Shown here piece after piece: positions 2,681 to 37,298 of a stretch of 37,450 nucleotides of DNA (its first letter is position 1; each line of letters starts with the position of its first letter). The notes beneath the pieces were generated by a model. The model saw only the letters and a list, made by a program, of their open reading frames with translations. It was not told where the DNA came from and ran no database searches. The DNA comes from Anaerolineaceae bacterium. GTDB taxonomy: Bacteria > Chloroflexota > Anaerolineae > Anaerolineales > Anaerolineaceae. Location: positions 1-37,450 of the forward strand of contig JAFPZX010000036.1 of assembly GCA_017417055.1 (NCBI GenBank). The letters are read 5' to 3'. The translations under genes were made by a program, and so were the position numbers.

Positions 2681-2720
2681 TGACACCTGCCACCTGACAC
2701 CTGAAACCTGATCCCTAATT
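2681..2720. repeat. Heptamer array E1 (CCTGANA units)
   Basis: Five units of 7 bp in strict phase from 2686 to 2720 (CCTGCCA, CCTGACA and relatives), all beginning CC. The last unit, CCTAATT, contains the TAG stop codon of the minus-strand thioredoxin gene (complement of 2715-2717). It has the same word type as arrays E2 and E4. Confidence 0.75.
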
Positions 2721-3419
2721 ATTGTTCTTCAGATATTTGCTCATGTGTGCGTCATAAATTGCCGGGGAAGCGCCGATGATGGGTGCACCGATGATTTTCC
2801 CTTCTTTATCGATAAAATAGGTAACGGGGAAAAACTGTGTCGGCAGCTGTCTGTATATGTCATCGTTCGGTAAAATAGTCAGGATGGTAAGACCTAAATC
2901 TTCGAGAATTTCTTTTGCTTCCTGTATCTGGTCTTCTTCAATCGCGTCATAGACAAGACTGATGACCTGACCGCCTTTTGGTTTGTATTCCCGGTTGAGC
3001 CTGGCCAGTTCCGGCATTTCACTGATGCAGGCAGAACAGGTCACAGACCACAGGTTGAGCATGGTTACACTGCTTTGATTGAAGATTTCAGAACTGAAAA
3101 CCGGAATCCCGTTCAGGTCTGTTGTTCTGAAATGAATCAGATCTCCTGTTTTCGCCGGTCCAGATAAAGATAATTGATTCGGATAGATGAAAGTAGAATC
3201 GCAGCCTACCTCACTGTCGCAAATCTGCACGCCGTTCTCGTCCTGTTCTGCAAGAGACTGGAGCAGAAACACATTGACATCATCAAGCGCGGGGACATCT
3301 GCTGAGATGCTGCTTTTCCCGTCGGATCCGATGGTAGGCTGAGCCATCTGTGCATTTGCTTTGCAGACACTCAGAAAAAAAATCAGAATTGTAAAAAGGT
3401 TTCTTGCGGTGGTGCTCAT
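2715..3419 (-). CDS. TlpA/ResA-like thioredoxin-fold protein, exported
   Basis: Predicted extracytoplasmic thiol-disulfide oxidoreductase. Residues 1-24 form a signal peptide (hydrophobic core then KANAQ). The thioredoxin fold begins around residue 85 and carries the redox motif C128-S-A-C131 in LWSVTCSACISEMPEL, typical of AhpC/TSA-redoxin TlpA proteins. A later TQFFPVTYFIDKEGKI supplies the cis-Pro strand. Two extra cysteines (67 and 73) in the N-terminal region could form a disulfide. The length of 234 residues is ordinary. There is no cytochrome maturation gene nearby, so the substrate is unknown. The start follows a strong -10 box by only 8 bases and has an in-frame stop just upstream, so the message may be leaderless. 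The stop codon lies inside a heptamer repeat. Confidence 0.85.
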   Translation of the reverse strand: MSTTARNLFTILIFFLSVCKANAQMAQPTIGSDGKSSISADVPALDDVNVFLLQSLAEQDENGVQICDSEVGCDSTFIYPNQLSLSGPAKTGDLIHFRTTDLNGIPVFSSEIFNQSSVTMLNLWSVTCSACISEMPELARLNREYKPKGGQVISLVYDAIEEDQIQEAKEILEDLGLTILTILPNDDIYRQLPTQFFPVTYFIDKEGKIIGAPIIGASPAIYDAHMSKYLKNNN

Positions 3420-3427
3420 TTGCTATC

Positions 3428-3455
3428 ATTATACACAACAATTGCTGATTGTCAC
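3428..3455 (-). promoter_or_regulatory. Sigma-70 type promoter of the TlpA-like gene
   Basis: On the minus strand GTGACA (3455-3450) and a perfect TATAAT (3433-3428) are separated by 16 bp. Transcription would begin near 3421, two bases before the ATG at 3419. Confidence 0.6.
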
Positions 3456-3568
3456 ACATTTATCGTAAAATAATAGGTGTGGTGTTCTTTTAATGGTTAC
3501 GATTTATGCGTCTTACGGCGGGGTCGGACCTTCAGGGCTATCCCCATCATCTTCAGGATTATAGATTA

Positions 3569-5389: not shown

Positions 5390-5400
5390 GTTACTGTTCA

Positions 5401-5568: not shown

Positions 5569-6558
5569 ATGGATAAGAAAAAGTTGCTGACTTATCAATA
5601 TGATGCAAGTGTGAAAAAGATTCTGGCAAATAAAAAGATTCTTGCCTGGATCTTGAAAGAGTGTGTCTCTGAATTTAAAGATATTCCGGTGGATTATATT
5701 GCAAAGCGTTGTATTGGGAAAACTGAAATTTCTATAACAGCAGTTGACCAGGATGAAGAGGATCAAAAAGAAGATCATAATGAAAAAATAGTTGGGTTGA
5801 ATACTGAAGATAATTCTGAAAGAGAAGGTAAAATCTTTTATGATATCCGATTTAACGCTGCCGTACCCGGTGATAATCAGCTAATTCATTTGATCATCAA
5901 TATAGAAGCTCAGAAAGATGGCAATCCGGGATATCCGTTAATTAAGCGCGCTGTTTATTATGCCAGCCGTCTGATTTCTGCCCAAAAGCATACTGTTTTT
6001 ACGAAAAGCGATTATGGGAAAATTCGGAAGGTATATTCAATCTGGATCGAGATGAATGTTCCGGATGAAAAAGCAAACACGGTAACAGAATATTACATTT
6101 GCGAAAAAAATGTTATAGGTAATGTACATGAAAAACATGAAAGCTATGACCTGATCAATGTGATCATGATTGGTCTTGGAAAAGAAGACAGTATCATAGA
6201 AAAATCTATTTTGCGGCTTCTAAATGTGATGTTTTCAAAAACTGTGGATAAAAAGAAGGTCAATAAAGTTTTAATTGATGAATTCGGGATCTCACCACGT
6301 GGGTTTCTGGGAAAGGAGATCAATACTATGTGTAATCTTGGCGAAGGATTATACGAAAGCGCGTATCAGGAAGCGTATCAAACAGCTTCTGAGAAAATAT
6401 CTGATGAAACACAGACAAAAACCTGGGTTGAGTCAGCAATAAATGTTATGAATGTTTTCAATGTTGATGCACAGCAGGCTGTTGATGCACTGAAAATTCC
6501 GCAGGAAAAGCGGCAAACAGTTCTGACTCAGATCGAGGCTGCTTTAGCTCCGGTATAG
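5569..6558 (+). CDS. PD-(D/E)XK nuclease family transposase (Rpn-like)
   Basis: Resembles the abundant Rpn/'PD-(D/E)XK nuclease family transposase' proteins of gut and rumen anaerobes. Homologues of this group open with an LLT-QYDASVKKIL motif. The nuclease core appears as D92 in FYDIRF, then E113-A-Q115 in NIEAQKDGNPGYPL, followed by RAVYYASRLISAQ. Residues 60-88 are acidic and variable. The C-terminal third is helical (EAYQTASEKISDETQTK). Rpn proteins promote recA-independent recombination; some may act in phage defence. No terminal inverted repeats are visible, so it is probably not a mobile unit by itself. It is flanked by its own promoter and a terminator. Confidence 0.8.
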   Translation: MDKKKLLTYQYDASVKKILANKKILAWILKECVSEFKDIPVDYIAKRCIGKTEISITAVDQDEEDQKEDHNEKIVGLNTEDNSEREGKIFYDIRFNAAVPGDNQLIHLIINIEAQKDGNPGYPLIKRAVYYASRLISAQKHTVFTKSDYGKIRKVYSIWIEMNVPDEKANTVTEYYICEKNVIGNVHEKHESYDLINVIMIGLGKEDSIIEKSILRLLNVMFSKTVDKKKVNKVLIDEFGISPRGFLGKEINTMCNLGEGLYESAYQEAYQTASEKISDETQTKTWVESAINVMNVFNVDAQQAVDALKIPQEKRQTVLTQIEAALAPV

Positions 6559-9393: not shown

Positions 9394-9483
9394 AAAATCG
9401 CTGAAGGGACTCCGCAGCAGGTCATGAATGATCCTTATGTGATGGAAGTTTATCTCGGAAAAAAGGAGGTGGCGCATGCTTAA
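9391..9483 (+). other. Remnant 3' end of livG beyond the premature stop
   Basis: After the TAA, 29 sense codons in the livG frame encode the expected LivG tail (IAEGTP, then NDPYVMEVYLG). The frame ends at a TAA (9481-9483) that overlaps the livF ATG by 8 bp, a typical operon junction. This indicates a single substitution, a sequencing error, or stop readthrough rather than a natural end. Confidence 0.8.
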
Positions 9484-10183
9484 AGTTACTGATTTGAGTG
9501 CGGGATATGGTGCAATCAAAATTCTCTGGAATTTGAATTTTGAAATCGCTGAAGGTGAAATCGTTGCCTTCCTGGGATCCAACGGTGCCGGAAAAACGAC
9601 AACCGTCCGTGCTGTAACCGGTTTGATCCGTCCTTCCTCCGGTTCCGTGACCTTCAATGGGGAAGAACTGGCAAAGAAAAATTCCCGTGCCATCCTGGAC
9701 AGCGGAATCGTTCAGGTACCGGAAGGCCGTCAGCTGTTTACGGATATGACGGTGTTGGAAAATCTCGAGATGGGTGCTTTTAACAAGATAACACGGGAAC
9801 ATTTCAAGGAAAACCTGAAGACTGTTTATAAGTGGTTCCCCAAGCTGGAAGAGCGGGCGAACCAATCTGCGGGTACCCTTTCCGGTGGGGAACAGCAGAT
9901 GGTTGCAGTGGCTCGTGCACTTATCGGAATGCCGAAGCTCTTGATCCTGGATGAACCGTCACTTGGTTTGGCTCCGAACATTGTGGATGAGATTCTTGCT
10001 GTAGCCACTTCTATGGCGAAAAATGACGGTATTTCCGTGATGCTGGTGGAGCAGGATATTACCAAGGCCCTGGCTTGCGCAGATCGCGGGTATGTGATTG
10101 AAAACGGACGGATCGCTTTGGAAGGTACATCCGATTCACTCAGCGCGAATGAACACGTCAAGAAAGCGTATCTGGGAATTTAG
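9476..10183 (+). CDS. livF: ABC ATPase LivF
   Basis: Second ATPase of the importer, 235 residues, the usual LivF length. It shows Walker A GSNGAGKTT, a Q-loop region (VQVPEGRQLFTDMTVLENL, the LivF hallmark) and the complete signature LSGGEQQM. Walker B is LLILDEPSLGLAP, with a switch His replaced by Gln in MLVEQDI, as is normal for LivF. AAAAGGAGGT (9461-9470) precedes ATG 9476. Its TAG stop (10181-10183) is the first three bases of heptamer array E2. Confidence 0.94.
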   Translation: MLKVTDLSAGYGAIKILWNLNFEIAEGEIVAFLGSNGAGKTTTVRAVTGLIRPSSGSVTFNGEELAKKNSRAILDSGIVQVPEGRQLFTDMTVLENLEMGAFNKITREHFKENLKTVYKWFPKLEERANQSAGTLSGGEQQMVAVARALIGMPKLLILDEPSLGLAPNIVDEILAVATSMAKNDGISVMLVEQDITKALACADRGYVIENGRIALEGTSDSLSANEHVKKAYLGI

Positions 10184-10277
10184 TTGTTAGTGGTCAGTGG
10201 CCGGTGGTCAGGGTTTGGTGGTCTGCAAAAGGTTCTCGTATGCCTGGCACCTGAAACCTGACACCTGAAACCTGACA
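10181..10277. repeat. Heptamer inverted-repeat element E2
   Basis: Left array 10181-10222: six G-rich 7-bp units of the type YAGTGGT, beginning at the livF stop codon. Right array 10243-10277: five C-rich units alternating CCTGAAA and CCTGACA. The two arrays are imperfectly complementary, separated by about 20 bp. The element fills the first half of the livF-livK gap. Confidence 0.75.
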
Positions 10278-10339
10278 CTGAGATCACTGCAAAGCGGTAA
10301 TTTGCGCCGTGGCAGTTCGGCGCTAATGAAAGAGGGAAT

Positions 10340-13796: not shown

Positions 13797-14768
13797 TTAT
13801 TTGATGACCTTCAGCGCTTTGCGGTCAATGGTGAGCGCGACGAAAATCAGGAAGATCACACCCTTGATGAGCTGTTGGGTAGCGGAGTCGTAACCCATCA
13901 TGACCAGTCCATTGTTCAGTACTGTGTACATCAGCGTACCGACGACGATATTGGAGAAGCGAACCTTCGCCCCGCCGGTGATTGGCAGACCGCCCAGCAC
14001 CAGGGAAATCAGGATCTGGGTTTCCAACTGATTCCCAGCGGTGGAGGTGATGGAACCGACCTTGATGACGTTCACAAAAGCAGCTAAACCGGTCAGGGCG
14101 CCGGCTGCGACGAAGACCATGAACTTCACGAAATCAGTGCGGACACCGGAAAAGCGTGCAGCGGTCTCACCGGAGCCTACAGCTTTCACATCGCTGCCGA
14201 TTCGGGTGAACTGGAACAGGAAAAAGGCGATTACCAGCACGACCAGAGTGATGGTGATCTTCAGCCAGTCCAGGTCCAGCGCCTTGATAGCTTTGGATGC
14301 CGGAACGGCTGTTTCCGTCGTCAGGTATGCACACACACCTCGGAAAAGGTACATCGTACAAATCGTCACGATAAAGCTTGGCAGCTTGAATTTGACGTGG
14401 AAGAAACCGTTGACCGCGCCGATGGCAGCGCCGGTCAGGATACCGCCCAGAATTGCCAGCGGGATGCTCTTGAAGGAAAGCATGGAGATCACGATGGAAG
14501 CTACACCCAGTGTAGAGCCTTCCGTGAAGTCGATCGATCCCAGCGTCATGATAAAGAACACACCGGTTGCCACAATTGCCGGGTAATACACCTGGGAAAG
14601 CAGCAGACGCATGCGTTTCGGCGTCAGAATCTTGCCTTGGGTCAGGATGTTCATGACCACGATGATCACTACCAGTCCGATAAACGGCAGCAGTGCTTTG
14701 AATTGATCTCCGCTGAAAAAGGCGCGGAGTTTAGACTGTCCATTGTTTTTCGATTTAATACTTTCCAT
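13797..14768 (-). CDS. CUT2-type sugar ABC permease (second importer)
   Basis: Membrane permease of the RbsC/XylH/MglC family (BPD_transp_2), 323 residues with about nine helices. The segments VVMNILTQGKILTPKRMRLLL, TLGSIDFTEGSTLGVASI, ETAARFSGV and LVLGGLPITGGAKVRFSNIVVGTL are typical. It is the last gene of the importer, 12 bp after the ATPase, with AAGGAG before its ATG. It pairs with the permease at 16293-17243 as a probable heterodimer. Substrate is inferred to be a pentose from context only. Confidence 0.88.
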   Translation of the reverse strand: MESIKSKNNGQSKLRAFFSGDQFKALLPFIGLVVIIVVMNILTQGKILTPKRMRLLLSQVYYPAIVATGVFFIMTLGSIDFTEGSTLGVASIVISMLSFKSIPLAILGGILTGAAIGAVNGFFHVKFKLPSFIVTICTMYLFRGVCAYLTTETAVPASKAIKALDLDWLKITITLVVLVIAFFLFQFTRIGSDVKAVGSGETAARFSGVRTDFVKFMVFVAAGALTGLAAFVNVIKVGSITSTAGNQLETQILISLVLGGLPITGGAKVRFSNIVVGTLMYTVLNNGLVMMGYDSATQQLIKGVIFLIFVALTIDRKALKVIK

Positions 14769-14780
14769 GATATCCGCTCC

Positions 14781-16280
14781 TTACACCATTTTTGCGATCA
14801 GATCATTTTCATCCAGCTGCTTGCTGCGCTTGAACTCGCCATTGATTTTCCCGTCCTTCATAATGAAGATACGGTCAGACATACCGAGCAGTTCCGGAAT
14901 TTCCTCGGAAATCATAATGATGGATTTCCCTTCATCCTTCAGGTCTTGCATCAGGGCGTAAATTGCCTGTTTGACTTTCACGTCAATGCCGCGGGTCGGG
15001 GAGTCCAGCACCAGGATATCGGAACCCTTCCCAAGCCAGCGTGCGAGGACGACTTTTTGTTTATTTCCGCCGGAAAGGTCAGAGATAAACTGATGGACAG
15101 AAGCCATCTTTGTCTGCATATCATCTGCGTGTTTTTTAGCGAATCTTGTCAGCTTGCGCCCGTTCAGCATTTTGTGATTAGCCAGATCATCGATCGAAGG
15201 CAGCACAACATTATTGCGGATGGATTCATTGAGGATAATGGATTCATTATCGCGGTCTTTGGATGCATAAGCGATGGAATGTTTGATGGCTGTTGGAATG
15301 CTGTTGATTTCTGTGCCATCAGCAAGCGTTACACTGCCTTTCCTGTTCCAGGATGCACCGAAAATCGCCTTGCCGACTTCGTGCATGCCACATTCGGAAA
15401 GTCCGCCGATCCCGAGAATTTCGCCTTTGTGCAGGTCAAAACTGATATCGTAGATCTGCTTCGGAACAGTAACATTCCGGATTTTCAGTACTACTTCATC
15501 AGAAACCGGAGTGCCGTAATCAGTGCGGTAGTAAGCGTTCCCGATTTCACGCCCGACCATCAGGCGTTTGAGGTCGTCTTCACTTACGTCTTTTGAATTG
15601 ACGGTGTCAATATATTCGCCGTCGCGGAGAATCGTTACCGTATCGGTATGGTCCAGAACTTCACCCAGGTCGTGGGAGATGAAGATCACTGAACGTCCGT
15701 CATCGCGGACCTGATGCATGATCTTGTAAAGTTCCATACGTCCATTCTGTGAAAGAGCGGTGGTAGTTTCATCGACGACCAGGATCTTCGGTTTCATGTA
15801 GGTAGCTTTGACGATTTCGATCAGCTTGCGGTCTTCAAAATTGTACGCGTCAATCATGGCCGCGGCGTTAATGCGCCCGAATCCGTATTCGTTCAGCAGG
15901 CGCTGTGCTTCTTTGTTCATTGCGGCGGTGTTTTTCACCACACCGTTCATGAAAGGCTCTTCATGTCCGAGGAAGATGTTTTCCGCTACCGTCAGACCGG
16001 AGAGCGTTCCCATTTCCTGAACGATAATAGCAACACCCTCGTTGTTGGCTTCTACCTGATTGCGGACATGGAGTTCCTTGCCGTCCAGCTTGAAGGTTCC
16101 TCCTCCAATGCTGTAAATACCGCAGAGCATCTGGGAAAAGGTGCTTTTTCCGGATCCATTTTCACCGATCAGACCACGGATTTCACCCGCGTCGATGGTC
16201 AGGGAAACGTTGTCTACAGCATGAGTGATGTCAAATTTCTTGTCGATGTTTTCAGCGACCAATAAGGTTTTCTTTTCCAT
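14781..16280 (-). CDS. CUT2-type sugar ABC ATPase, tandem domains (second importer)
   Basis: Two fused nucleotide-binding domains of the RbsA/XylG/MglA type, 499 residues. The first domain has Walker A GENGSGKST, but its signature is degenerate (YNFEDRKLIEIVKA) and its Walker B reads VVDETTTALS instead of DEP. The second domain lacks a canonical Walker A (GIGGLSECGMHE), as normal for the family, and has LSGGNKQKVVLARWL and VLDSPTRGIDVKVKQ. Thus ATP hydrolysis would rely on composite sites. GGGAGG precedes ATG 16280; 12-bp gaps on both sides show tight coupling with the permeases. Confidence 0.9.
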   Translation of the reverse strand: MEKKTLLVAENIDKKFDITHAVDNVSLTIDAGEIRGLIGENGSGKSTFSQMLCGIYSIGGGTFKLDGKELHVRNQVEANNEGVAIIVQEMGTLSGLTVAENIFLGHEEPFMNGVVKNTAAMNKEAQRLLNEYGFGRINAAAMIDAYNFEDRKLIEIVKATYMKPKILVVDETTTALSQNGRMELYKIMHQVRDDGRSVIFISHDLGEVLDHTDTVTILRDGEYIDTVNSKDVSEDDLKRLMVGREIGNAYYRTDYGTPVSDEVVLKIRNVTVPKQIYDISFDLHKGEILGIGGLSECGMHEVGKAIFGASWNRKGSVTLADGTEINSIPTAIKHSIAYASKDRDNESIILNESIRNNVVLPSIDDLANHKMLNGRKLTRFAKKHADDMQTKMASVHQFISDLSGGNKQKVVLARWLGKGSDILVLDSPTRGIDVKVKQAIYALMQDLKDEGKSIIMISEEIPELLGMSDRIFIMKDGKINGEFKRSKQLDENDLIAKMV

Positions 16281-17243: not shown

Positions 17244-17276
17244 ATCAATAATCCTTTTTCAAAATAAGAAGCAAAA

Positions 17277-17459
17277 AAATAAGAAAAAAGAAATAAGAAA
17301 TAAGAAATCAAAAAACTAATCTATCTGAATAAGATTTTTGATTATCCGGTTCGTATTTCTTATGATGTTCACCTTTTGTCTTATTTTTTTATTATTCGGT
17401 TCAAATTCATAATAATTTGCTGAATAATTGTCTTATTTCTTATTTCTGATTTCTTATTT
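17277..17459. repeat. Heptamer inverted-repeat element E3, 29-bp arms
   Basis: Left arm 17277-17305 and right arm 17431-17459 are reverse complements at 27 of 29 positions. Each arm is made of about four 7-bp units of the word TAAGAAA or its complement. The 125-bp interior is AT-rich and contains two diverged direct copies of a motif around ATTATNCGGTTC (near 17341-17352 and 17392-17403). On the minus-strand transcript it would fold into a long hairpin between binding protein and permease genes. Confidence 0.85.
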
Positions 17460-17468
17460 ATCAAAATG

Positions 17469-17515: not shown

Positions 17516-17527
17516 ATCGATCAAATC

Positions 17528-18730: not shown

Positions 18731-18807
18731 TTAGGTTTCAGGTTTCAGGTGGTTACTTCTTACTGCTACATACCTATAACCTATAACCCACAACCTATAA
18801 CCTAATT
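18731..18807. repeat. Heptamer element E4
   Basis: A short G-rich left part (about three units of AGGTTTC, 18732-18751) is followed by C-rich units in strict 7-bp phase from 18773 to 18807 (CCTATAA three times, CCCACAA, CCTAATT). The final CCTAATT contains the complement of the araD TAG stop, exactly as in E1. Confidence 0.75.
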
Positions 18808-23708: not shown

Positions 23709-23709
23709 C

Positions 23710-27409: not shown

Positions 27410-27430
27410 CTTTATTACTCCTTTTTGATT

Positions 27431-27446
27431 CTCCCGTTCGCGGGAG
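27431..27446. promoter_or_regulatory. 5'-leader hairpin of the YtfQ-like gene
   Basis: CTCCCG and CGGGAG pair with a 4-base loop, located just upstream of the Shine-Dalgarno sequence on the minus strand. It is analogous in place to the small hairpin before araA and may stabilise the 5' end. No promoter is obvious in 27410-27787; that gap otherwise holds array E5 and AT-rich DNA. Confidence 0.5.
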
Positions 27447-27460
27447 TTTAACCACTACGT

Positions 27461-27603
27461 CAGGTTTCGGGTTTCTAGTGTCAGGTTTTAGGTTTCAGGT
27501 GTTTGAAAAAGGGAAGAAATGCCGACCTGTTTCCCTGTTGCCCATTGCCAAATGCCTAATGCCTAATGCCTAATGCCTATCTCCTATTTCCCGTTTCCTG
27601 AAA
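27461..27603. repeat. Heptamer element E5 in the divergent control region
   Basis: Left array 27461-27502: six units in strict 7-bp phase, mostly CAGGTTT. Right array 27534-27603: ten consecutive units all beginning CC, including CCTAATG three times in a row. The arms are G-rich and C-rich respectively but use different words. The element lies between the divergent YtfQ-like gene and histidine kinase gene, where their promoters should be. Confidence 0.8.
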
Positions 27604-27759
27604 TTATTGTAAATGCCTGTCTGAAAAATAACATTCAGTTTCTTTTGATGTTTGCTTGAAAAATTTTTGTTTTTTTAAAATAAATTAATTGAAAAATGAT
27701 AAAAAATTTTGAAAAAGATGTGTTTTTTTTAGATTTTCGAGGAGCGCAGCAGAATCTGT

Positions 27760-27765
27760 TATAAT
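27760..27765 (+). promoter_or_regulatory. Putative -10 box for the histidine kinase
   Basis: A perfect TATAAT lies 22 bp before ATG 27788. The -35 region (around 27735-27742) is poor, so an activator may be needed. There is only a weak GAAG as ribosome binding site. Confidence 0.4.
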
Positions 27766-27787
27766 CTTCAAAACAGAAGTTATAATT

Positions 27788-29260
27788 ATGGAAAAACAAT
27801 CTGACTCCCAACTTGGAAAACAGAGCATTACCCAGCAGATCAATGGCCTGCTGCTGCCAATTTTTGTTGTGATGGGCGTGATGGTGGCGGTATTCAGCGT
27901 GATGCTGCTTTCCATCAACTACCGCTACGAAGACGCGATGCAGAGCGCTGTGCTCGCCGCAGATTTTAATAAAGAATTCAAAGATACACTGGACCTGGCT
28001 ATGTACAACCACGTCATCCAGCCGCGTACGAAAAATTCGATCGCGCAGCTGCCGATGGAGGAGCTGGATAAGGCGGAAGCTGTTTTGACCAGGCTCGAAA
28101 CAGTGACAACGCTGCCGGACAACAAGTGGCGCATCCAATCCATGCTTTACATGTGCCGGAACCTGCGGATGTATATGACTGAAATCGCGCTGACAGAGTC
28201 TTATGATCTGCGCATGGAGATGTTGGACAAAAACATCCGCGGCGAAACCGGCCTGACGACACTGATAGAAAGGTATATGCACGATTTTGTGGGCGATGAG
28301 GTGGAGGAACTGGCGCGGCTGCGGGTTTCCCTGAACCGGCAAAGCGCTGTCTTGATCGGTGCCACAGTGATCAGCATGATCATCTTGTTTGTAATCATTG
28401 TCACCTATTCCATGGTCGTGAACCGGCGGATCACCAACCCGATCATCGCGCTGACGGAAAAGGCCAAGCAATTCGGGAAAAGAGATTTTTCCCAGGCAAA
28501 GCCGATCCATACCAATATAACCGAGCTGGAGATTCTGGATGACAGTTTCAACGAGATGACCGGCCACATTACCTCGCTGATGAAAAAGCAGATCGAAAAT
28601 GAACGCTCTCTTCATCAAGCCGAACTGGAGCTTCTCCAGGCGCAGATCAATCCTCATTTCCTTTATAATACGCTGGACTCCATCGTGATTTTGGCGGAAT
28701 CCGATCGCTCGGAAGACGCTGTTGATATGATTACCAGTCTGAGCACTTTTTTCCGTAATTCTCTCAGTGAAGGGGCAGACATTCACACGATCCGTGCTGA
28801 ATTTGCTCAGGCAGAAAGTTACCTGAAAATTCAGCAGATCCGATACAGTGATATATTGGCTTATTCTATAAACGTATCGGATGAAATTCAAAACCGGCTG
28901 ATCCCCAAGCTCATCCTGCAGCCCTTGATAGAAAACGCGCTCTATCACGGCATCAAAAACCGGCGGGGAAAGGGACTGATCACCATTACCGGCACGAGGG
29001 AAGGAGAAAAAATATTCCTGCGTGTACATGACAACGGTGCCGGGATGGATCAGGAACGGCTGGATATGCTGCAAAACGGCATCTATCAGGAAAAACGGGG
29101 CAGCTTCGGGCTCTGGAATGTTCACCAGCGCATCCGCCTGTATTGCGGAGAATCCTACGGTCTTTCCTTTGAGAGCACTCCCGGCGAGGGGACGACCGTC
29201 ACCGTCACCCTCCCCGCGGAAGGAGTGATTGGAAAGGAAGAAGTAAGAAGTAAGAAGTAA
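27788..29260 (+). CDS. YesM/LytS-type sensor histidine kinase
   Basis: Membrane sensor kinase, 490 residues. Membrane segments at about 21-43 and 178-203 flank an extracellular helical sensor region. A HAMP domain follows (NRRITNPIIALTEKAKQFGKRDFS). The His_kinase domain has the phosphoacceptor H290 in LQAQINPHFLYNTLDS. The HATPase domain has LIENALYHGIKNRRGKG, DNGAGMDQ and GSFGLWNVHQRI. Such kinases usually act with an AraC-type (YesN) response regulator, but none is in the window; the next gene is a sugar-binding lipoprotein. The divergent pentose operon is the obvious target. The last seven residues (EEVRSKK) and the stop codon are encoded by a heptamer array. Confidence 0.9.
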   Translation: MEKQSDSQLGKQSITQQINGLLLPIFVVMGVMVAVFSVMLLSINYRYEDAMQSAVLAADFNKEFKDTLDLAMYNHVIQPRTKNSIAQLPMEELDKAEAVLTRLETVTTLPDNKWRIQSMLYMCRNLRMYMTEIALTESYDLRMEMLDKNIRGETGLTTLIERYMHDFVGDEVEELARLRVSLNRQSAVLIGATVISMIILFVIIVTYSMVVNRRITNPIIALTEKAKQFGKRDFSQAKPIHTNITELEILDDSFNEMTGHITSLMKKQIENERSLHQAELELLQAQINPHFLYNTLDSIVILAESDRSEDAVDMITSLSTFFRNSLSEGADIHTIRAEFAQAESYLKIQQIRYSDILAYSINVSDEIQNRLIPKLILQPLIENALYHGIKNRRGKGLITITGTREGEKIFLRVHDNGAGMDQERLDMLQNGIYQEKRGSFGLWNVHQRIRLYCGESYGLSFESTPGEGTTVTVTLPAEGVIGKEEVRSKK

Positions 29261-29561
29261 GAAATATTTGGTGCTGGGGACTTGGGTCTGGAGAAGTAAA
29301 AAGTATGACGTATGATATTAGATGGATGACGTATTATGGTAGATGGATACAGGCAGCGATTATTATTGGAAAGAAGGCTAAAAATATGAGACAAAATTAT
29401 AAATTTCATTTTACTGATGGAAAGGTCACCGGAAGAATATTCCATCTTACGTCTTACTTCAAGCGTCTTACGTCATCCATCATACGTCTAACGTCTAAAA
29501 ACTTACGTCTAACGTCTAACATCACCCTTCTTACTTCTTACTCCTTACTCCTTACTTTCCT
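29234..29561. repeat. Heptamer inverted-repeat element E6 (largest copy)
   Basis: Left arrays: AAGTAAG units at 29234-29261, which include the histidine kinase stop, and eight phased units at 29292-29347 with words TGACGTA and AGATGGA. Right array: 17 consecutive units from 29443 to 29561 in one phase, running from CGTCTTA through CGTCTAA to CTTCTTA and CTCCTTA. Nested pairings are 29242-29257 with 29527-29542 (16 bp perfect), 29307-29316 with 29479-29488 and 29321-29333 with 29469-29481. The right array is translated in the next gene. Confidence 0.85.
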
Positions 29562-30483
29562 CCTCTCTTCCTGTGCCTCACCGCAAAAGGCTGTACCGGG
29601 AGAAAAGGAACTGATCGTTGTCGGTTTTTCCCAGGTCGGGTCGGAAAGTGACTGGCGGAACGCGAATACAGTCAGCATGGAAGAGGCATTTTCAACGGAG
29701 AACGGCTACCGCCTGATTCTGGATGATGCCCAGCAGAAGCAGGAACGTCAGATCACAGCCATCCGGAACTTTATCAATCAAGGTGTGGATTACATTGTTC
29801 TGGCGCCGATCACCATGGAAGGCTGGGACACAGTGCTGACAGAAGCCAAAACCGCCGGGATCCCCGTGATCATCGTGGACCGCATGATCGACACCGACGA
29901 CCCGGATCTGTTTACCTGTTGGGTCGGCAGCGATACCCACCGGGAAGGAAGCACGGCGGCGGAGTGGATGGAAAAGAATCTGACAGGACCGCTCAATATT
30001 GTCCATCTCCAGGGCAACATCGGTTCATCACCGCAAGTCGGGCGGACGGAAGGTCTGGATGAAGGGCTGGAGAGAAATGCGGATTGGAATCTTGTTTTCC
30101 GGGCTTCCGGTGATTTTGTCCAGGCGAAAGGTCAGGAGCTGATGGAGGAGGTACTGCGGAAGGGGATCGATTTCAACGTGATCTACGCGGAAAACGACAA
30201 CATGGCTTATGGCGCGATCGATGCTCTGAAGGCGCATGATATCGTCCCGGGCAAGGATGTGACGATCATCAGCTTTGATGCCGCGCACGATGCGCTGAAG
30301 CTGGTACTTGCGGGGGAACTGAACCTGGATGTGGAATGTAACCCGCTGCATGGTCCCCGCGTCCGTGCACTCATTGAGCAGCTGCACAGCGGCAAAACGC
30401 CCGAGAAATTTACCTATGTCGATGAAGTCTACTTTGATGCCTCCAACCTGACCGAACACATCATTTCTTCACGGGGATATTAA
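29386..30483 (+). CDS. YtfQ-like sugar-binding lipoprotein, putative sensor partner of the kinase
   Basis: Peripla_BP_4 protein, paralogous to the binding protein at 26402-27409 (shares VGFSQVGSESDWRNANTVS, DDAQQKQERQITAIRNFINQGVDYIVLAPITMEGWDTVL and QVGRTEGLDEG). The start chosen is ATG 29386, 8 bp after AAGAAGG; ATG 29305 lies in repeat DNA. The lipobox is LLSSC with Cys 63, so the pre-cleavage part is three times the normal length. It reads as five copies of a seven-residue LTSxxxR-like unit because 21 bp equals three heptamers. Position after the kinase suggests an XylFII-LytS-like arrangement in which the binding protein presents sugar to the kinase. It has no transport genes on its own strand. 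Confidence 0.85.
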   Translation: MRQNYKFHFTDGKVTGRIFHLTSYFKRLTSSIIRLTSKNLRLTSNITLLTSYSLLLTFLLSSCASPQKAVPGEKELIVVGFSQVGSESDWRNANTVSMEEAFSTENGYRLILDDAQQKQERQITAIRNFINQGVDYIVLAPITMEGWDTVLTEAKTAGIPVIIVDRMIDTDDPDLFTCWVGSDTHREGSTAAEWMEKNLTGPLNIVHLQGNIGSSPQVGRTEGLDEGLERNADWNLVFRASGDFVQAKGQELMEEVLRKGIDFNVIYAENDNMAYGAIDALKAHDIVPGKDVTIISFDAAHDALKLVLAGELNLDVECNPLHGPRVRALIEQLHSGKTPEKFTYVDEVYFDASNLTEHIISSRGY

Positions 30484-31475: not shown

Positions 31476-34400
31476 ATGGACCACGAGGAAAACGCCAGAC
31501 TGAATTACTGTTTCAATTGCATGCGGCGGCTGGGAGAGGATGAAACGCTCTGCCCGGACTGCGGCTATGACAACAGCCGACGGCAAAACCCGGAAAACAC
31601 ACTGCCGGAAGGGACGATCCTTGCCGGAAAATATTTTGTCGGGAAAATGCTCGGACACGGCGGTTTTGGCATTACCTATCTGGGGCGTGATCTGGCTCTG
31701 GACGTTCCGGTAGCGATCAAAGAGTATTTTCCCGTGGGCGTGGGAATAAGATCCCCTCATTCCATCCGTGTAACCTCAATTTCAACGGCGGTGGATCCGG
31801 AAGGCTTCCGGAAAGGCTGCGATGAGTTTCAATCGGAGGCGCAGACCCTGGCTCGTTTCAACAGTCCGAACATCGTCCATGTGCGCGACTACTTTCGTGA
31901 AAACGGCACCGCGTACATCATCATGGATTATGTTCGCGGAAACAGTTTGACGAAGGAAGTGGAAGTAAACGGCGGAAAAATTCCATGGGAGCGTGTGATC
32001 AGCCTTTTCAAGCCACTGATCCTCGAACTGGATAAGCTGCACAAACAACACGTGATCCATCGGGACATTAAGCCGGACAACCTGCGTATCGCGGTGGATG
32101 AATCGGGTGCGGAACGGTTGGTGCTGCTGGACTTCGGTGCGGCGCGCAGCTTTCTTTCAGCACAGGTGACCAAGACCTATACAGCCATGGTGACACCGGG
32201 CTATGCTCCGTTGGAGCAGTACAGTCCGAAAAGCCGCCAGGGACCTTATACGGATGTTTATGCACTGTGCGCCACCATGTATGCCGCGATTTCCGGTGTT
32301 GTGCCGGCTGTTGCCACGGACCGCGTAGTGGGTGAGGCTGATCTGGATAACTTCAGATCGTTTGATCTGGCGGTGCCGGAAACGGTTGAAGCTGCTATCA
32401 CACATGGGCTGGCGGTGAAAAGCGCGGATCGTCCGCAGAGCATGGCGGAATTATACAAAGAACTGACCGGTGAAGGCACGCCCGGTGCTGTGGAAAAGCC
32501 GGCGGATCCTGTTCCGACGGTACAGCGGGACTGGAATAAAGTGAAGCGGGTCGATGACCTGCCGGAGCGGCCGGAACCGAAAAAATCTGGAAAGATATGG
32601 CTGCTTGTTCCGCTGCTGCTGATTCTGGCTGCAGGCGGTTTTTCCATTTTCCGAAACCTGCAGCAGAATCAAAAAAACACCGCTTCGACGCAGACCGCTG
32701 TTTTCCTTACGGATCAACAGAATACCCGGGAAATTGAGACTAAAACTGCTGTTGATGCGGAAAATACAACCGCTGCTCAGCAGAAGCTGACTGAAGCAGC
32801 GCAGAAGGTCCTTTTCGCGGAACAAACGCAAACGCAGGGAGCCTTAGATGAGGAACGAACCGCTACGACCTGGATGGAAACCGTCGAGTCGCAGCTGCAA
32901 ATGACGCAGACGCAGTCAGCACGTGACCTGAACAGTACCCGAACGGTACAAGCCGGTGAAATGCAGCAGACGGTCCAGGTTGAAACGCAGTCATCACTTC
33001 AGACACAGGAAGCACTTCAGGCTAAGCAGACCGCCACAGCCTGGTTCGCCGCGGAGGAGGCGAAACTCAACCAGACACAGACGCAATCCGCCTTTGATGT
33101 ACAGAACACGCAAACGACGGCTGCTGAGCAGACAGCACAGGCAAAGGGTACCGCTGCGGCACTGGAGCGGACCCGGGAGGCAGAGCTGCACCTGACGGAA
33201 ACGCAAGCGGCCATGGATGCGCAGCGCACACAGGAAGCACAGGCACAGCAGACTGCGCAGGCGGAGCGTACCGCCGCGGCCTGGAAGGGTACGCAGGACG
33301 CGATGTTCGGTCTGCAGACAGAAATTGCCGGAACGCAGGATGCCTTCCATGCCACGGAGACCATGTCGGTCATGAACCTGACACAGGATGCCATGAATTT
33401 GCTGCGCACGGAAATGGCGCAAACACAGGTGGCCTTCAGCGCCATGCAAACGCAAGCTGCCCGGCCAACAGCCACGTCCACCAAAACGCCGCAGCCGACA
33501 ACGACCAACACCTTACGTCCCTCAGCAACTACAGCACCGTCACTGACTCCTACCGCGAGCGGACCTTTTCTGTACACCGTTCAGGAAGGTGACAACTGCT
33601 GGTCAATTATTGTTGAATTCGGCGTTCCGCTGGATGTGTTCCTGATAATCAACAATCTGCCATTATCCTGCCCGATTGAAATTGGTCAGGAACTGTTGAT
33701 CCCGGCTCCGGATCAGGAGATGCCGACAGCCACACCGATTCCATTGGATCAGTACACTATCGGTCAGCAGATTGAATATACGGTAGAGATAAATGACACT
33801 TATCCGGAAATCGCATCCAAATTCAACACGACGCTGGATTCTATTCAGCGACTGAATGACATTGAAGATATTACTTCCTTCCCGACTTTTGGGCAGACAC
33901 TGATCATCGCGGTCAATCTGGTCACGCCCACGCCTTCCCCGGTACCGACTTATACGGAAATCCCTATGGATGTCCGGGTAGGAGATATCATCACCTTTGG
34001 AAAATACGAACAGGACAACGATCTCTCAAATGGTCCCGAACCCATCGAATGGCAGGTGCTGGATGTAGAAAACGGTCGTGCTTTGTTGATCAGTAAATAT
34101 GGGTTGGATAATAAGCCGTATAATGAAAAATCTGAAAGTGTGACCTGGGAGACGAGTACGCTGAGAAAATGGCTGAACGGGGAATTTTATGTTGATACGT
34201 TCAACGACAACGAAAAAGAAGCTGTCCTGCAGGTGTTGAGTGATAACCCGGACAATTCGGATTATAAAACAAAAAGTGGAAGCAATACTTGGGATAGAAT
34301 ATTTTTACTGAATATTGATGATGTAAACAAATATTTTCCGTCAGCAGAATCCCGAAAATGTCTGTCAACTGCTTATGCAAAAGAGAACGGGGCTTCCGTA

Positions 34401-35225
34401 AATAAAGAATACAGTACATCGTGGTGGTGGCTGCGGTCTCCCGGCTACAGCAATGGTCAGGCCGCATACGTCGGTACATTGGGCTCTGTAAGCTCTTATG
34501 GTGATAATGTTGACCTCAATGATGCCGTTGTGCGTCCCGCTTTCTGGCTGGACCTTAAAAATGGAGAAGTGAGTAAAGCATCACATCTGACTGATGGAAT
34601 ATCTCAGTCTGCGAATGCACCTGTTCCAACATTTGCTGCTCCGCAAGTTGGTGATATTATCACTTTTGGAAGATACGAACAGGACAATAACCTCGACAAC
34701 GGTCCCGAACCCTTCGAATGGCAGGTGCTGGATGTGGAAAATGATCGCGCACTTGTGATCAGTCGCTATGGGTTGGACACGAAAACGTATAATGAAAAAT
34801 ATAAAGAAGTGACTTGGGAGACAAGTACGCTGCGGAAATGGCTGAACGGGGAATTCTACAACAGCGCATTCAGTCAAAGTGAGCAGAGAGAGATCCGAGA
34901 GGTAACAAATGAAAACCTGTCTAATCCGAAATACGGGACAAAAGGAGGAAACAGGACACAGGACAAGATCTTTTTATTAAGTATCAATGAAGTGAATAAA
35001 AACTTTACGTCAAATGAAGCGCGGAAATGTTGGGCGACAGAGTATGCAAAAGAAAATGGAGCATATATTTATAATTTGTATTACACGTCGTGGTGGTTGC
35101 GTTCTCCCGGCTATAATCGTGGTACAGCCGTAATTGTCGATACATTTGGCGAAGTCAAAACGATTGGCACTAGTGTTGATAATACTAGTGTTGTCGTACG
35201 CCCAGCTTTTTGGATGAATCTGTAA
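31476..35225 (+). CDS. Membrane Ser/Thr kinase with TQ-rich stalk, two LysM and two DUF6273 domains
   Basis: 1249-residue transmembrane Hanks-type kinase. It opens with a zinc ribbon (C12, C15, C26, C29). The kinase domain spans about 50-330: glycine loop G60-H-G-G-F-G65, K82 in VAIKEYFP, H195-R-D197-IKPDN, D219-FGAAR, then TPGYAPLEQYSPKSRQG. All catalytic residues are present. One membrane helix (about 374-392) follows. Outside the cell lie a stalk of degenerate TQTQ/AxxTxxA repeats (about 400-660), a Thr/Pro linker and two LysM-like domains (about 700-743 and 767-808). The C terminus has two tandem DUF6273 domains (about 831-1026 and 1055-1249), each ending near VVRPAFWxxL. The exterior probably binds glycan or peptidoglycan and signals inward. 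An FHA gene and a radical SAM gene follow. Confidence 0.9.
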   Translation: MDHEENARLNYCFNCMRRLGEDETLCPDCGYDNSRRQNPENTLPEGTILAGKYFVGKMLGHGGFGITYLGRDLALDVPVAIKEYFPVGVGIRSPHSIRVTSISTAVDPEGFRKGCDEFQSEAQTLARFNSPNIVHVRDYFRENGTAYIIMDYVRGNSLTKEVEVNGGKIPWERVISLFKPLILELDKLHKQHVIHRDIKPDNLRIAVDESGAERLVLLDFGAARSFLSAQVTKTYTAMVTPGYAPLEQYSPKSRQGPYTDVYALCATMYAAISGVVPAVATDRVVGEADLDNFRSFDLAVPETVEAAITHGLAVKSADRPQSMAELYKELTGEGTPGAVEKPADPVPTVQRDWNKVKRVDDLPERPEPKKSGKIWLLVPLLLILAAGGFSIFRNLQQNQKNTASTQTAVFLTDQQNTREIETKTAVDAENTTAAQQKLTEAAQKVLFAEQTQTQGALDEERTATTWMETVESQLQMTQTQSARDLNSTRTVQAGEMQQTVQVETQSSLQTQEALQAKQTATAWFAAEEAKLNQTQTQSAFDVQNTQTTAAEQTAQAKGTAAALERTREAELHLTETQAAMDAQRTQEAQAQQTAQAERTAAAWKGTQDAMFGLQTEIAGTQDAFHATETMSVMNLTQDAMNLLRTEMAQTQVAFSAMQTQAARPTATSTKTPQPTTTNTLRPSATTAPSLTPTASGPFLYTVQEGDNCWSIIVEFGVPLDVFLIINNLPLSCPIEIGQELLIPAPDQEMPTATPIPLDQYTIGQQIEYTVEINDTYPEIASKFNTTLDSIQRLNDIEDITSFPTFGQTLIIAVNLVTPTPSPVPTYTEIPMDVRVGDIITFGKYEQDNDLSNGPEPIEWQVLDVENGRALLISKYGLDNKPYNEKSESVTWETSTLRKWLNGEFYVDTFNDNEKEAVLQVLSDNPDNSDYKTKSGSNTWDRIFLLNIDDVNKYFPSAESRKCLSTAYAKENGASVNKEYSTSWWWLRSPGYSNGQAAYVGTLGSVSSYGDNVDLNDAVVRPAFWLDLKNGEVSKASHLTDGISQSANAPVPTFAAPQVGDIITFGRYEQDNNLDNGPEPFEWQVLDVENDRALVISRYGLDTKTYNEKYKEVTWETSTLRKWLNGEFYNSAFSQSEQREIREVTNENLSNPKYGTKGGNRTQDKIFLLSINEVNKNFTSNEARKCWATEYAKENGAYIYNLYYTSWWLRSPGYNRGTAVIVDTFGEVKTIGTSVDNTSVVVRPAFWMNL

Positions 35226-35290
35226 TCTTGCGTCAATGTCTCCTTAACAGTTTAGATACGCAAACTTAAGGACAGAGAGGATGAGTGGTT

Positions 35291-35974
35291 ATGTATCAAA
35301 AAGATATCTTATTCGATGAGGGAACAGTTTATCAAAAAGTTTACCATCTGATTTCAGGCAGCATCGATTTAGCTTTCAAAGTTCCCGGGTGGTACACGCT
35401 TGGACGGGATGACTCATGTGATTATGTTCTGAGCGATCCTGAAATCAGCAGAAAACACTGCAGGCTTGCTGCCGGTGATTCGTTGAGCGTAACTGATTTA
35501 AATTCAACAAACGGTACTTATGTCAATCACAAGTGCATTTATGACAAAAGCACGTTGTTGGAAGATGGAGATGTCCTGTCGATCGGGTTTCTTGAATTTC
35601 GCGTGTCAACAGAACGGATCCCGCAGAAAAAAGCCAATGCATCTGGTTTTATAGAGGAAAGCGGTTTATTTAAAGTATTTACAAATCAAACGCATTGTCC
35701 AAAATGTAAAAAGATATTTAAAGATGAGAATGATAAGTATTGCCGGTACTGCGGTACGGAAAGAAAAAAGCATTTAAAACTGACTTTCGAACAGAGAGCT
35801 TTTGAAGATTGTATGACGATTTACGGACCGCCGCCCGTTACTGTACATTATCAGTGTAATGTCTGCGGAAACAGATGGCAGGGGAGCAACTGGTCAATGG
35901 ACCGTTATTGCCCAAATTGCGGAAATGAATGTGAAAATGACCTTCCGGAAAGAGAATTCCATCGGTATGGATAG
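35291..35974 (+). CDS. FHA-domain protein with two zinc ribbons
   Basis: Cytoplasmic phosphothreonine reader, 227 residues from ATG 35291; a GTG two codons earlier (35285) is also possible. The FHA core is YTLGRDDSCDYVLSDPEISRKHCRL then NSTNGTYVNHK, with the binding residues (GR, S, H, NSTNGT) intact. The C-terminal half carries two CxxC pairs of zinc-ribbon type: CPKCKK with CRYCGTE, and CNVCGNRW with CPNCGNE. It probably docks on the autophosphorylated kinase encoded upstream. Its TAG overlaps the radical SAM ATG by 8 bp, indicating translational coupling. Confidence 0.87.
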   Translation: MYQKDILFDEGTVYQKVYHLISGSIDLAFKVPGWYTLGRDDSCDYVLSDPEISRKHCRLAAGDSLSVTDLNSTNGTYVNHKCIYDKSTLLEDGDVLSIGFLEFRVSTERIPQKKANASGFIEESGLFKVFTNQTHCPKCKKIFKDENDKYCRYCGTERKKHLKLTFEQRAFEDCMTIYGPPPVTVHYQCNVCGNRWQGSNWSMDRYCPNCGNECENDLPEREFHRYG

Positions 35975-37049
35975 TTACGATTTGCTTCAAAATCGTCTGC
36001 AATTTGCCATACACCGCAATCACCTTTTCAAAAACCCGGAGCTGCATTATCTGTTCTTTGAACTGACAGATCAATGTAATCTGCGGTGTTTGCATTGCGG
36101 AAGCAGCTGTAATGCACAGCGAAGCCGGTTTTTGGAGACAAAAAAGGTTATTGAAACGATCTGTGAGACTGCCGGGCACGAAGGGCGTGTTCATGTGGTA
36201 CTGACGGGCGGAGAGCCGCTGCTGCATCCGGGGTTTCAGGAGATTATTGAAGCGCTGCATAATTCAAATCTTTACTGGTCTGTGGTGACCAACGCCATGC
36301 TCCTTACAGATAAAACTGCCGAACAAATGAAGAAAAATCGTATCTATTCTGCCGCGGTGAGTCTGGATGGTAATGCCGAAGAACACAATTATCTGCGCCG
36401 GAATAGCCATGCTTTTGACCATGCGGTTCGTGGAATCAGGATCCTGAAAAACCATGGTATCTACGTTCAGGTGGCCAGTGTGATCACGAAGCGGACACTC
36501 CCGCGGTTGGAGGATCTTTATATCGAGGTGAATGATCTTCACGTGGATTCGTGGAAAGTGCTCAATATTGAACCGATTGGAGAGGCAAGAAAAAACAGTG
36601 AATTGCTGCTTGATCGTGAAGAGTTGTTCCGTTTGTTCAGCTTTATTCAGAAAAAGAGATCGGATTTTGATCAAAAACCCGGTCAGATGGAAGTAACTTA
36701 TGGCTGTTCTCATTTTTTGCCCGATGCCTATGAGGGAAAAATCCGAACGACTCCTTTTATCTGCGGCGCGGGAATTATGATCGCGAGTGTTCAGTGCAAT
36801 GGTGATATCGCTGCCTGTCTGGATATCGAACGAAGAAATGAGCTGGTTCAGGGGAATATTTATCAGGATTCCTTATGGGATGTGTGGCAGAACCGCTTCC
36901 AAATCTTCCGCCGGGATCGGACAACCGACAGTCCGCAGTGCGGGGATTGCAGATATGCCCTTGTGTGCGGAGGGGACAGCCTGCATACCTGGGACTTCGA
37001 GCATAAAAATCCGAATTTATGTTTGTTTCGGGAAAAACTGAATAATTGA
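35967..37049 (+). CDS. Radical SAM/SPASM-domain enzyme
   Basis: 360-residue radical SAM protein. Start taken at ATG 35967 (MDSYDLLQNRL), which overlaps the FHA stop; the longer frame would run far into that gene. The [4Fe-4S]-SAM motif is C37-NLR-C41-LH-C44. TGGEPLLHPGF, SLDGNAEEHN and EPIGEAR follow the family order. The C-terminal SPASM region has Cys in ICGAGIMIASVQCNGDIAACLD and CGDCRYALVCGG plus a final NLC, enough for auxiliary clusters. Such enzymes modify peptides or proteins. The coupled FHA protein and kinase suggest a protein or peptide substrate, but none is identified. An N-terminal ~25 residues could be a small recognition segment. Confidence 0.88.
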   Translation: MDSYDLLQNRLQFAIHRNHLFKNPELHYLFFELTDQCNLRCLHCGSSCNAQRSRFLETKKVIETICETAGHEGRVHVVLTGGEPLLHPGFQEIIEALHNSNLYWSVVTNAMLLTDKTAEQMKKNRIYSAAVSLDGNAEEHNYLRRNSHAFDHAVRGIRILKNHGIYVQVASVITKRTLPRLEDLYIEVNDLHVDSWKVLNIEPIGEARKNSELLLDREELFRLFSFIQKKRSDFDQKPGQMEVTYGCSHFLPDAYEGKIRTTPFICGAGIMIASVQCNGDIAACLDIERRNELVQGNIYQDSLWDVWQNRFQIFRRDRTTDSPQCGDCRYALVCGGDSLHTWDFEHKNPNLCLFREKLNN

Positions 37050-37067
37050 TGTTGAGATATACCCCAA

Positions 37068-37102
37068 ACGGGACGGTTCCCGGGGTCTGTCCCGTTCTTT
37101 GT
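37068..37102 (+). terminator. Terminator after the radical SAM gene
   Basis: ACGGGAC (37068-37074) with GTCCCGT (37089-37095), followed by a T-rich tract (TCTTTGTTC). Confidence 0.6.
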
Positions 37103-37193
37103 TCTATATCCCTACCACATTTTTAAACAAAAGTCAAGGGACAACATTGCCCGTTTACTTTTTCAAATTTCCGCTGTAAACTCTGAATATAAG

Positions 37194-37298
37194 GAGTAAG
37201 AAGTAAGTAGTAAGTAGTAAGGAGTGATGAGGTTCCCGAAGATCAGGGACTGAACGCAAACAACTCCTCACTCCAAACGCCTAACTCCTAACTAACGA
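37194..37298. repeat. Heptamer inverted-repeat element E7
   Basis: Left array 37194-37228: five phased units of NAGTAAG type. Right array 37264-37298: five phased units of the CTCCTAA type. The arms are partly complementary (GGAGTGATGAGG against CCTCACTCC). It ends at the Shine-Dalgarno sequence of the next gene. Confidence 0.75.

Follow-up and report, generated by a model that had tools for sequence, protein, structure and literature searches.

Heptamer arrays of inward polarity and replaceable word fill intergenic gaps in a Flexilinea-like Chloroflexota genome and its close relatives

Heptameric repeats, inverted pairs included, are already known from Xanthomonas, Nostoc and Beggiatoaceae. 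Here we describe arrays of degenerate 7-bp units at seven loci in a stretch of 37,450 nucleotides from an Anaerolineaceae bacterium (GCA_017417055.1, contig JAFPZX010000036.1, positions 1 to 37,450), called the window in the following. What is new in them is a polarity rule, combined with replacement of the repeated word in place: an array that touches one edge of an intergenic gap nearly always has its cytosine-poor (C-poor) strand running 5' to 3' into the gap, at stop codons as well as before start codons.

The G-rich heptameric repeats of Xanthomonas (GGGAATC/GGGANTN) and Nostoc (GGGGA(C/T)T) were described by Rehm et al. (2015, PMC4692102); the inverted heptamer pairs of Xanthomonas are convergent, and the repeats lie near the preceding gene (PMC4692102). 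Convergent pairs are also what we observe, with 59 gaps of the order R-then-Y and none of the order Y-then-R (R, the C-poor strand is the strand read; Y, the opposite), and they agree with the rule, which the available text of that paper does not state. The same text focuses on G-quadruplexes and on a single G-rich word with highly conserved positions 1-4 and 6, whereas our arrays use many words of the form GRNNTNA. Unlike the descriptions for Xanthomonas and Nostoc (and for Xanthomonas the description alone was compared), our arrays combine a polarity of single arrays at both kinds of border with word replacement at orthologous positions. Direct repeats of TAACTGA occur in Beggiatoaceae, cyanobacteria and Bacteroidetes (MacGregor 2015, PMC4679880). 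Those of BOGUAY are mostly situated directly upstream of start codons, with one indirect repeat; close Cyanothece strains differ by 7-nt indels, some genomes mix TAACTGA with other heptamers, and in a Microcystis sample the orientation relative to starts is mixed (PMC4679880). They resemble our arrays in being intergenic heptamers, but the position before starts is shared by our Y arrays only, and the accessible part of that study treats one word in direct repeats without describing a two-sided polarity. Neither TAACTGA nor GGGAATC nor GGGGA(C/T)T is among the 30 commonest units listed here. Costa, in 2002, is said to have reported degenerate heptanucleotide repeats in P6b of the Nostoc tRNA-Leu intron. 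Classes of these degenerate words base-pair into a hairpin (PMC3488679); going by the text at hand, this is one intron, not intergenic, with both arms paired, whereas here one-sided gaps (139) outnumber two-sided ones (59; 198 gaps, five species). In Bacillus, tandem repeats of 52 or 20-21 nt combine a constant unit length with variable sequence (PMC8161180), but their units are longer and the available description mentions no anchoring at stops or ribosome sites. Chloroflexus aurantiacus, likewise of the Chloroflexota, has a heptamer satellite, (GATAGRA)n (PMC6749651), but from a single word, as far as it is described. The palindromic form was unfamiliar to the initial annotation of the window; the inverted pairs of Xanthomonas (PMC4692102) and the hairpin heptamers of the Nostoc intron (PMC3488679), to the extent that these sources were available, show that it is not without precedent. 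For the open-licence PubMed Central literature on the form or the host, the accessible text describes no polarity that is inward at the stop side as well as at the start side of gaps.

The window is contig C129 of a 200-contig, 4.41-Mb Flexilinea-like Chloroflexota assembly, labelled G000 here. Its AraA is 96-98% identical (best segment) to AraA of four metagenome-assembled genomes, namely RUG13631, RUG13159 and RUG11948 (G011, G010 and G009), which carry the label uncultured Chloroflexi, and RGIG2505 (G006), a Flexilinea sp. from goat jejunum. These five species were compared with each other; the genus group comprises 14 genomes. With a criterion of 20 or more matching bases out of 28, the window has 182 positions of self-match at lag 7, and the other lags between 2 and 30, multiples of 7 aside, reach no more than 8 each; a segment scan gave 11 lag-7 segments, every one at the seven loci of the initial annotation. 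Indeed, all seven loci are present where they had been placed, its runs of 10 and 17 units correspond to segments 27531-27598 (~10) and 29437-29556 (~17), and the excess over shuffled sequence that it had proposed as a check was found in the part of the genome sampled: 643,127 bp in 40 further stretches contain 70 lag-7 segments and at most 16 at any other lag from 4 to 30 (non-multiples), with none in two dinucleotide shuffles of each stretch. Over 1,071,462 bp of this genome, window included, we found 136 lag-7 arrays (0, 1, 9, 0, 10, 1, 0 and 2 arrays at lags 4, 5, 6, 8, 9, 10, 11 and 13), and G006 yields 78 in 456,910 bp, compared to 0-2 at the same eight other lags. Gene overlap is 15% or less for 109 of the 136 arrays and 9 lie mostly inside genes; simple codon-model gene calls made for this analysis put the coding share of the sample at 85%. 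The arrays are thus bacterial heptameric simple sequence repeats, with a tandem 7-bp unit and an intergenic excess. That the words vary from locus to locus and that the family is mostly intergenic had been correctly noted before; the order of purine-rich arrays on the left and pyrimidine-rich arrays on the right holds too, with two arms at six of the seven window loci but one arm only at 2680-2719.

The arrays have one degenerate unit in common, GRNNTNA on the C-poor strand. Expectation-maximization (EM) on 81 arrays, with strand and phase left free, returned G (0.88), A/G, N, N, T (0.80), N and A (0.75), and C does not exceed 0.09 at any unit position except 6 (C 0.35, A 0.33); the best random start reached the reverse complement of the same motif at near-equal likelihood. 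Among the three relatives covered by the motif comparison, the unit is also found in G006 (r 0.96) and G011 (0.91) and, less sharply, in G010 (0.76; 20 arrays). A pattern of four such units followed by G matches 222 times in G000 (overlaps counted), compared to 26 matches for the backward pattern; within the genus it matches 5 of the 14 genomes, those of 4.0-4.8 Mb, and gives no match in the nine remaining ones of 2.0-3.5 Mb, and across the phylum it is present in 49 of 301 genomes. In several genomes it is the backward pattern that matches more often, which shows that there are further heptamer grammars. One genome picked as array-rich from these counts (G293) was dropped, with merely 4 lag-7 arrays in its first 200 kb.

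Polarity was surveyed in 1618 gene-to-gene intervals of the five species, of which 198 contain arrays (267 in total). An array was taken to touch an edge if it started at -30 to +5 relative to a stop codon or ended -5 to 25 nt before a start codon. Exactly one edge is touched by 157 of the 267 arrays, and 146 of these 157 are inward: 70/75 at codirectional stops, 39/43 at codirectional starts, 31/31 at convergent stops and 6/8 at divergent starts. Read along the mRNA, the 148 codirectional gaps comprise 69 R, 41 RY, 32 Y, 3 RR, 2 RRY and 1 RYY; the 29 convergent gaps, on the plus strand, 12 Y, 8 R, 7 RY, 1 RR and 1 RRY; and the 21 divergent gaps 7 RY, 6 Y, 6 R, 1 RR and 1 YY. As the polarity labels derive from the motif itself, the test was redone on arrays picked by position alone: the motif at stops (67 arrays) and the motif before starts (33 arrays) are reverse complements (r 0.96; same strand, r 0.02). 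A cause in the transcribed strand was rejected, since polarity reverses between the stop side and the start side; so is replication direction, since a single gap can hold both polarities, and reinitiation, since convergent gaps also comply. Another 12 loci (L154-L165, 18 arrays; L157 from G000, the others from other genera) are too short for statistics; in the three that have adjacent opposite arrays the order is always R then Y, whereas at L159 a Y array precedes an R array at a distance of ~700 bp, beyond the 250-bp limit. In G077, a 58% G/C genome from another family of the same order, we found 36 heptamer arrays, 20 in called gaps and 16 unplaced. Its codirectional gaps have 3 R arrays starting -6 to 0 from stops and 15 Y arrays ending -15 to 57 nt before starts, 13 of the 15 within 36 nt.

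We interpret the arrays as spacer-filling heptamer minisatellites that have grown unit by unit from the edges of gaps, a reading to which we assign a probability of about 0.5. Identity between units at the variable positions is 0.714 for neighbours and drops steadily to 0.406 at a distance of ten units (0.336 for units of other loci), and this decay of likeness with distance points to sequential, unit-by-unit local copying. The slippage-like growth within loci that had been suggested earlier is borne out by it. In the mechanism that we propose, a process at the DNA level would add units in single 7-nt steps, beginning at the edge of a gap, beside dispensable DNA, and moving, as we infer, inward from there. 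Copying of the last unit would be error-prone and subject to a lasting bias towards G1, T5 and A7, and extension would take place on the strand whose 3' end faces the gap interior. RNA hairpins and the coding of signal peptides would be by-products that may be retained.

Comparison of orthologous gene ends shows turnover. Among 441 pairs, an R array is present in both members in 19, in one in 56 and in neither in 366 (odds ratio 9.5). The 19 concordant pairs represent seven loci, 10 of the 19 pairs coming from the aldolase stop described below, and are therefore not independent, so that a p-value would be unusable; on the other hand, some members counted as 'array-free' do show short arrays that fall under the threshold, which makes this concordance a lower bound. 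At the seven loci, arrays occur at one stop in at least two species, with words that are mostly unlike: word likeness at orthologous stops (0.197) is barely above random (0.124; 189/5000). The divergent spacer 27410-27787 has arrays in the window genome alone (0/3 comparable relatives), and its flanking blocks look conserved in all four. In 39 discordant codirectional gaps the array-bearing member is longer by 21 bp (median) while the arrays total 50 bp; the median difference of 213 array-free orthologous gap pairs is 1 bp. Dispersal of blocks between loci was rejected: only 4 pairs of loci have heterogeneous 28-mers in common, compared to 21-43 (5-95%) under a Markov null, which is generous because transitions were pooled over loci. 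Conversion, in the sense of exchange between loci, is thus not supported. Separately, L109 (from 3963) and L205 (from ~6422) of the window genome have a heterogeneous block of more than 28 nt in common, possibly a rare inter-locus copy.

Several observations weigh against growth from gap edges. Neither the inward polarity nor a fixed grammar would be expected from slippage alone. The in-phase heptamer just outside an array resembles the first unit no better than that of other loci (0.283 and 0.302; 3916/5000, 53 arrays), by which seeding by local duplication is rejected; the arrays are therefore not plain local duplications, and a median gain of 21 bp for arrays totalling 50 bp implies that replacement is involved. 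Of all 267 arrays, 95 touch neither edge and 15 both, and among the 157 that touch a single edge, 11 run against the rule. A cruder count of arrays within 15 nt of gene ends is strongly biased at 3' ends (57 vs 6 in G000, 26 vs 4 in G006), but at 5' ends it is unbiased in G000 (9 vs 8) and 10 vs 3 in G006, to which short gaps with an array reaching both edges contribute. The G077 data (L256-L265, L276-L280) include 5 Y arrays, out of the 15, that begin at -9 to +15 of the upstream stop as well, and its 24 octamer (8-bp) arrays obey the rule poorly, 8 of 13 octamer Y arrays starting within 13 nt of a stop. Given these mixed results, good support for the rule is limited to the Flexilinea group. 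Finally, the recurring words GGTTTCA and GAAGTAA are each found in 24 of the 136 arrays, and recurrent words could reflect copying from elsewhere. What the rule offers, i.e. inward polarity, one grammar, unit-to-unit copying and a change of word in place, is a set of predictions for any sequenced genome and for cultured hosts; a common but unexplained kind of bacterial repeat thus gains a testable rule, from a group of gut bacteria.

Most window loci are long imperfect palindromes, and the initial annotation suggested structural constraint as one of its explanations. The arrays might accordingly be RNA hairpin elements, in which a purine arm after the stop pairs with a pyrimidine arm before the next ribosome site, so that the stem is selected and the words drift; we consider this unlikely. 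It is true that two-sided codirectional gaps (60-420 bp) fold beyond shuffled sequence and beyond array-free gaps, with a mean z of -4.45 (36 gaps) vs -2.69 (a random sample of 80). Arms of the same locus also pair better than swapped arms in G000 (7/20,000 permutations, 24 pairs), and the spacer 17244-17527 keeps its heptamers in hairpin order in 5/5 species despite different words. However, one-sided gaps are more than twice as frequent as two-sided ones, and those tested fold like array-free gaps (R-only -2.90, 51 gaps; Y-only -2.80, 25 gaps); arm complementarity is not significant in G006 (4758/20,000, 20 pairs) and weak in G011 (651/20,000, 10 pairs). Moreover, a hairpin gives no need for a common motif in R-only and Y-only gaps, yet their motifs match (r 0.93). 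The idea that both arms of a locus often use the same word fares unevenly. In G000, sharing of 7-mers is 0.241 for same-locus arms and 0.064 for arms of different loci (0/20,000 permutations), a clear excess, but 13 of 26 pairs share none, and in G006 the excess is not significant (1133/20,000, 19 pairs). Within the window, sharing amounts to 0.78 at the locus starting at 17274, 0.24 at 29234 and 0.04 at 37190, with none at 27460 and, judged by eye, none at 10180 and 18733. As one-sided gaps are commoner and only two-sided gaps fold better, the palindrome is probably a by-product and structural constraint is not supported as the main idea: inward polarity at both edges yields a purine-then-pyrimidine palindrome by itself. 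The palindrome thus probably follows from the polarity rule, plus some later matching of arms in some species.

Breaks in gaps that were trimmed to functional borders, extended at their 3' ends with C-poor heptamers and then joined would leave a similar picture. In eukaryotes, interstitial telomeric sequences at break sites are of this kind, with a word made by telomerase, as far as the sources at hand describe them. Head-to-head G-rich strands of interstitial telomeric sequences have the same shape as the two-sided arrays found here. Such end healing is a rather doubtful explanation for our arrays, even if 3' extension from two sides would produce the inward polarity as well as lone arms and arms whose words differ, the cores between arms are little related (38 cores of at least 20 nt gave 7 short pairwise hits) and array gaps appear replaced, not merely enlarged. 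Ku is found in 0/14 genus genomes, although incomplete assemblies make this absence weak evidence; RVT_1, found in 7/14, is not found in the array-bearing G010 and G011 (incomplete assemblies) and present in four array-free genomes. In addition, one array in G011 follows a stop codon and precedes what by eye resembles a full terminator, a hairpin with a T run, and it has left this downstream hairpin intact. Neither Ku joining nor RVT_1 synthesis being supported in the genus, the healing enzyme would be new. A generalization, according to which bacterial heptamer arrays are scars of telomere-like healing by an activity that extends 3' ends with C-poor heptamers of fixed grammar, joined head-to-head, appears improbable to us; if true, telomere-like healing with other words would explain heptamer repeats across many phyla. 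Loss of SbcD was rejected as well (a match in 14/14 genomes, 13 over cut-off). Ku, RVT_1, Y1 transposases and SbcD loss do not account for the polarity, and the rule itself argues against transcription or replication strand bias, reinitiation, Ku joining and SbcD loss.

Mobile palindromic elements moved in trans by a Y1 transposase, either repetitive extragenic palindromes (REP) with their RAYT transposase or miniature inverted-repeat transposable elements (MITEs), are a very unlikely source. Y1_Tnp does occur in 5/5 array-bearing and only 2/9 other genus genomes, and across the phylum in 15 of the 22 genomes that have 10 or more pattern matches, compared to 121/301 overall (Fisher p 0.007). 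It is associated but not required, though, as 7 of the 22 array-rich genomes show no match, two of them listed as 100% complete, and two Y1_Tnp genes of G010 adjoin other repeats of ~62 and ~45 bp. The scarcity of hits between cores speaks against MITEs, whose copies share a conserved core and terminal inverted repeats, and array length and words are variable. The ~62-bp repeat is dispersed and palindromic (L118:12351-12412 and 14749-14811). Its copies are numerous in G009, G010 and G011, and G006 has some as well; those of G010 at C14:44116-45394 flank the Y1_Tnp gene C14:44444-44773, which looks like a REP/RAYT pair. The ~45-bp repeat is found in the window at 2525-2569 and has copies in G010 (C58:18685-19929) near the Y1_Tnp gene C58:19348-19680. 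A further palindromic repeat of ~80 bp (L118:15765-15846), built on GGGACTGTCCC-like sequence, has copies in G006 and G011.

Position relative to genes bears on two more proposals. Binding sites for a protein of S1, Csp or Csr type, placed before starts or after stops (compare MacGregor on TAACTGA), would suit the favoured unit positions G1, T5 and A7 and the Y arrays just before start codons, where most BOGUAY TAACTGA repeats lie according to the available text, but they are an improbable cause: on mRNA the motifs at stops and before starts are reverse-complementary, so that one RNA-binding protein would not read both. Convergent gaps hold arrays too, which speaks against RNA-protein binding and leaves a double-strand DNA-binding protein untouched. 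Arrays often provide the stop codon of a gene, their start offset peaking at -2 (20/145), and TAG is the stop at 56 of 145 array ends vs 203 of 1487 others. A cassette giving stops in all frames, by a TNA in each unit and 7 being 1 mod 3, would fit the gene stops that are in phase with the unit at 82 of 145 array ends, mostly array-supplied stops; it can nevertheless hardly be the explanation, since position 6 is C (0.35) as often as A (0.33), words with TCA, for example GGTTTCA, have no coding-strand stop, and Y arrays before starts are left unaccounted for. The length of the C-terminus is unchanged in only 24 of 56 discordant orthologue pairs, compared to 278 of 366 array-free pairs; arrays therefore often alter the last few residues.

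The arms of the window loci are as follows (positions in the window; words on the strand given).
2680..2719, minus strand: single array, GGTGTCA/GGTTTCA; lag-7 segment, score 21
10180..10207, plus strand: left (R) arm, GTGGTCA type as judged by eye; weaker signal
10243..10278, minus strand: right (Y) arm, GGTTTCA/GGTGTCA; lag-7 segment
17274..17319, plus strand: left arm, GAAATAA type; lag-7 segment
17431..17459, minus strand: right arm, GAAATAA/GAAATCA; lag-7 segment
18733..18750, plus strand: left arm, (AGGTTTC)n, from Tandem Repeats Finder (TRF); weaker signal
18772..18804, minus strand: right arm, GTTATAG; lag-7 segment
27460..27500, plus strand: left arm, GGTTTCA type, in a divergent spacer; lag-7 segment
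27531..27598, minus strand: right arm, ~10 units, GGCATTA type; lag-7 segment
29234..29263, plus strand: left arm, (GAAGTAA)n, last codons and stop of histidine kinase 27788-29260
29437..29556, minus strand: right arm, ~17 units, GACGTAA, GAAGTAA and GGAGTAA
37190..37231, plus strand: left arm, GAAGTAA/GTAGTAA; lag-7 segment
37263..37293, minus strand: right arm, GGAGTTA, stopping just short of a Shine-Dalgarno-like GGAGGG and ATG

An Rfam scan of the window gave no match at the gathering threshold. Several arms abut coding ends: the array at 2680..2719 reaches into the stop of the minus-strand redoxin-like gene 2715-3419, and the arm at 10180..10207 begins where the ABC-transporter gene 9476-10183 has its stop codon, a site at which G010 has an array of other words. 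Arrays of other words are also present in G010 and G009 at the histidine kinase stop, and no array was detected in G009, G010 and G011 in the spacer of the arm 27460..27500. Arrays are mostly found in gaps, usually against the border of a gene or of some other conserved block, and this border can be a non-translated block instead of a codon. The arm 17274..17319 sits 30 nt before the permease start (minus-strand gene 16293-17243), and a G/C-rich block, present in 5/5 species, parts its partner at 17431..17459 from the stop (17528) of a sugar-binding protein (SBP) gene. In the spacer 18647-18801, an 85-bp leader of an SBP gene is conserved in 5/5 species, and the space from this leader to the aldolase stop is filled by heptamers with species-specific words. 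There, in the five-species alignment, the arm 18733..18750 adjoins the ~85-bp leader, and the arm 18772..18804 begins within the stop codon of the aldolase gene 18802-19494, with arrays in 5/5 species and differing words. By translation, the arm 29437..29556 would form the hydrophobic core of a signal peptide, that of the sugar-binding lipoprotein encoded next (region 29437-29600), and may thus be an example of a repeat array serving as coding sequence; the same reading applies at this position to G010 and partly to G011, and G009 has no heptamer array there. Elsewhere in the window, 5569-6558 gives a weak match, slightly under the Pfam cut-off, to a transposase of the PD-(D/E)XK nuclease family, and 31476-37049 encodes, consecutively, a protein kinase with LysM and DUF6273 domains, an FHA protein and a radical SAM/SPASM protein.

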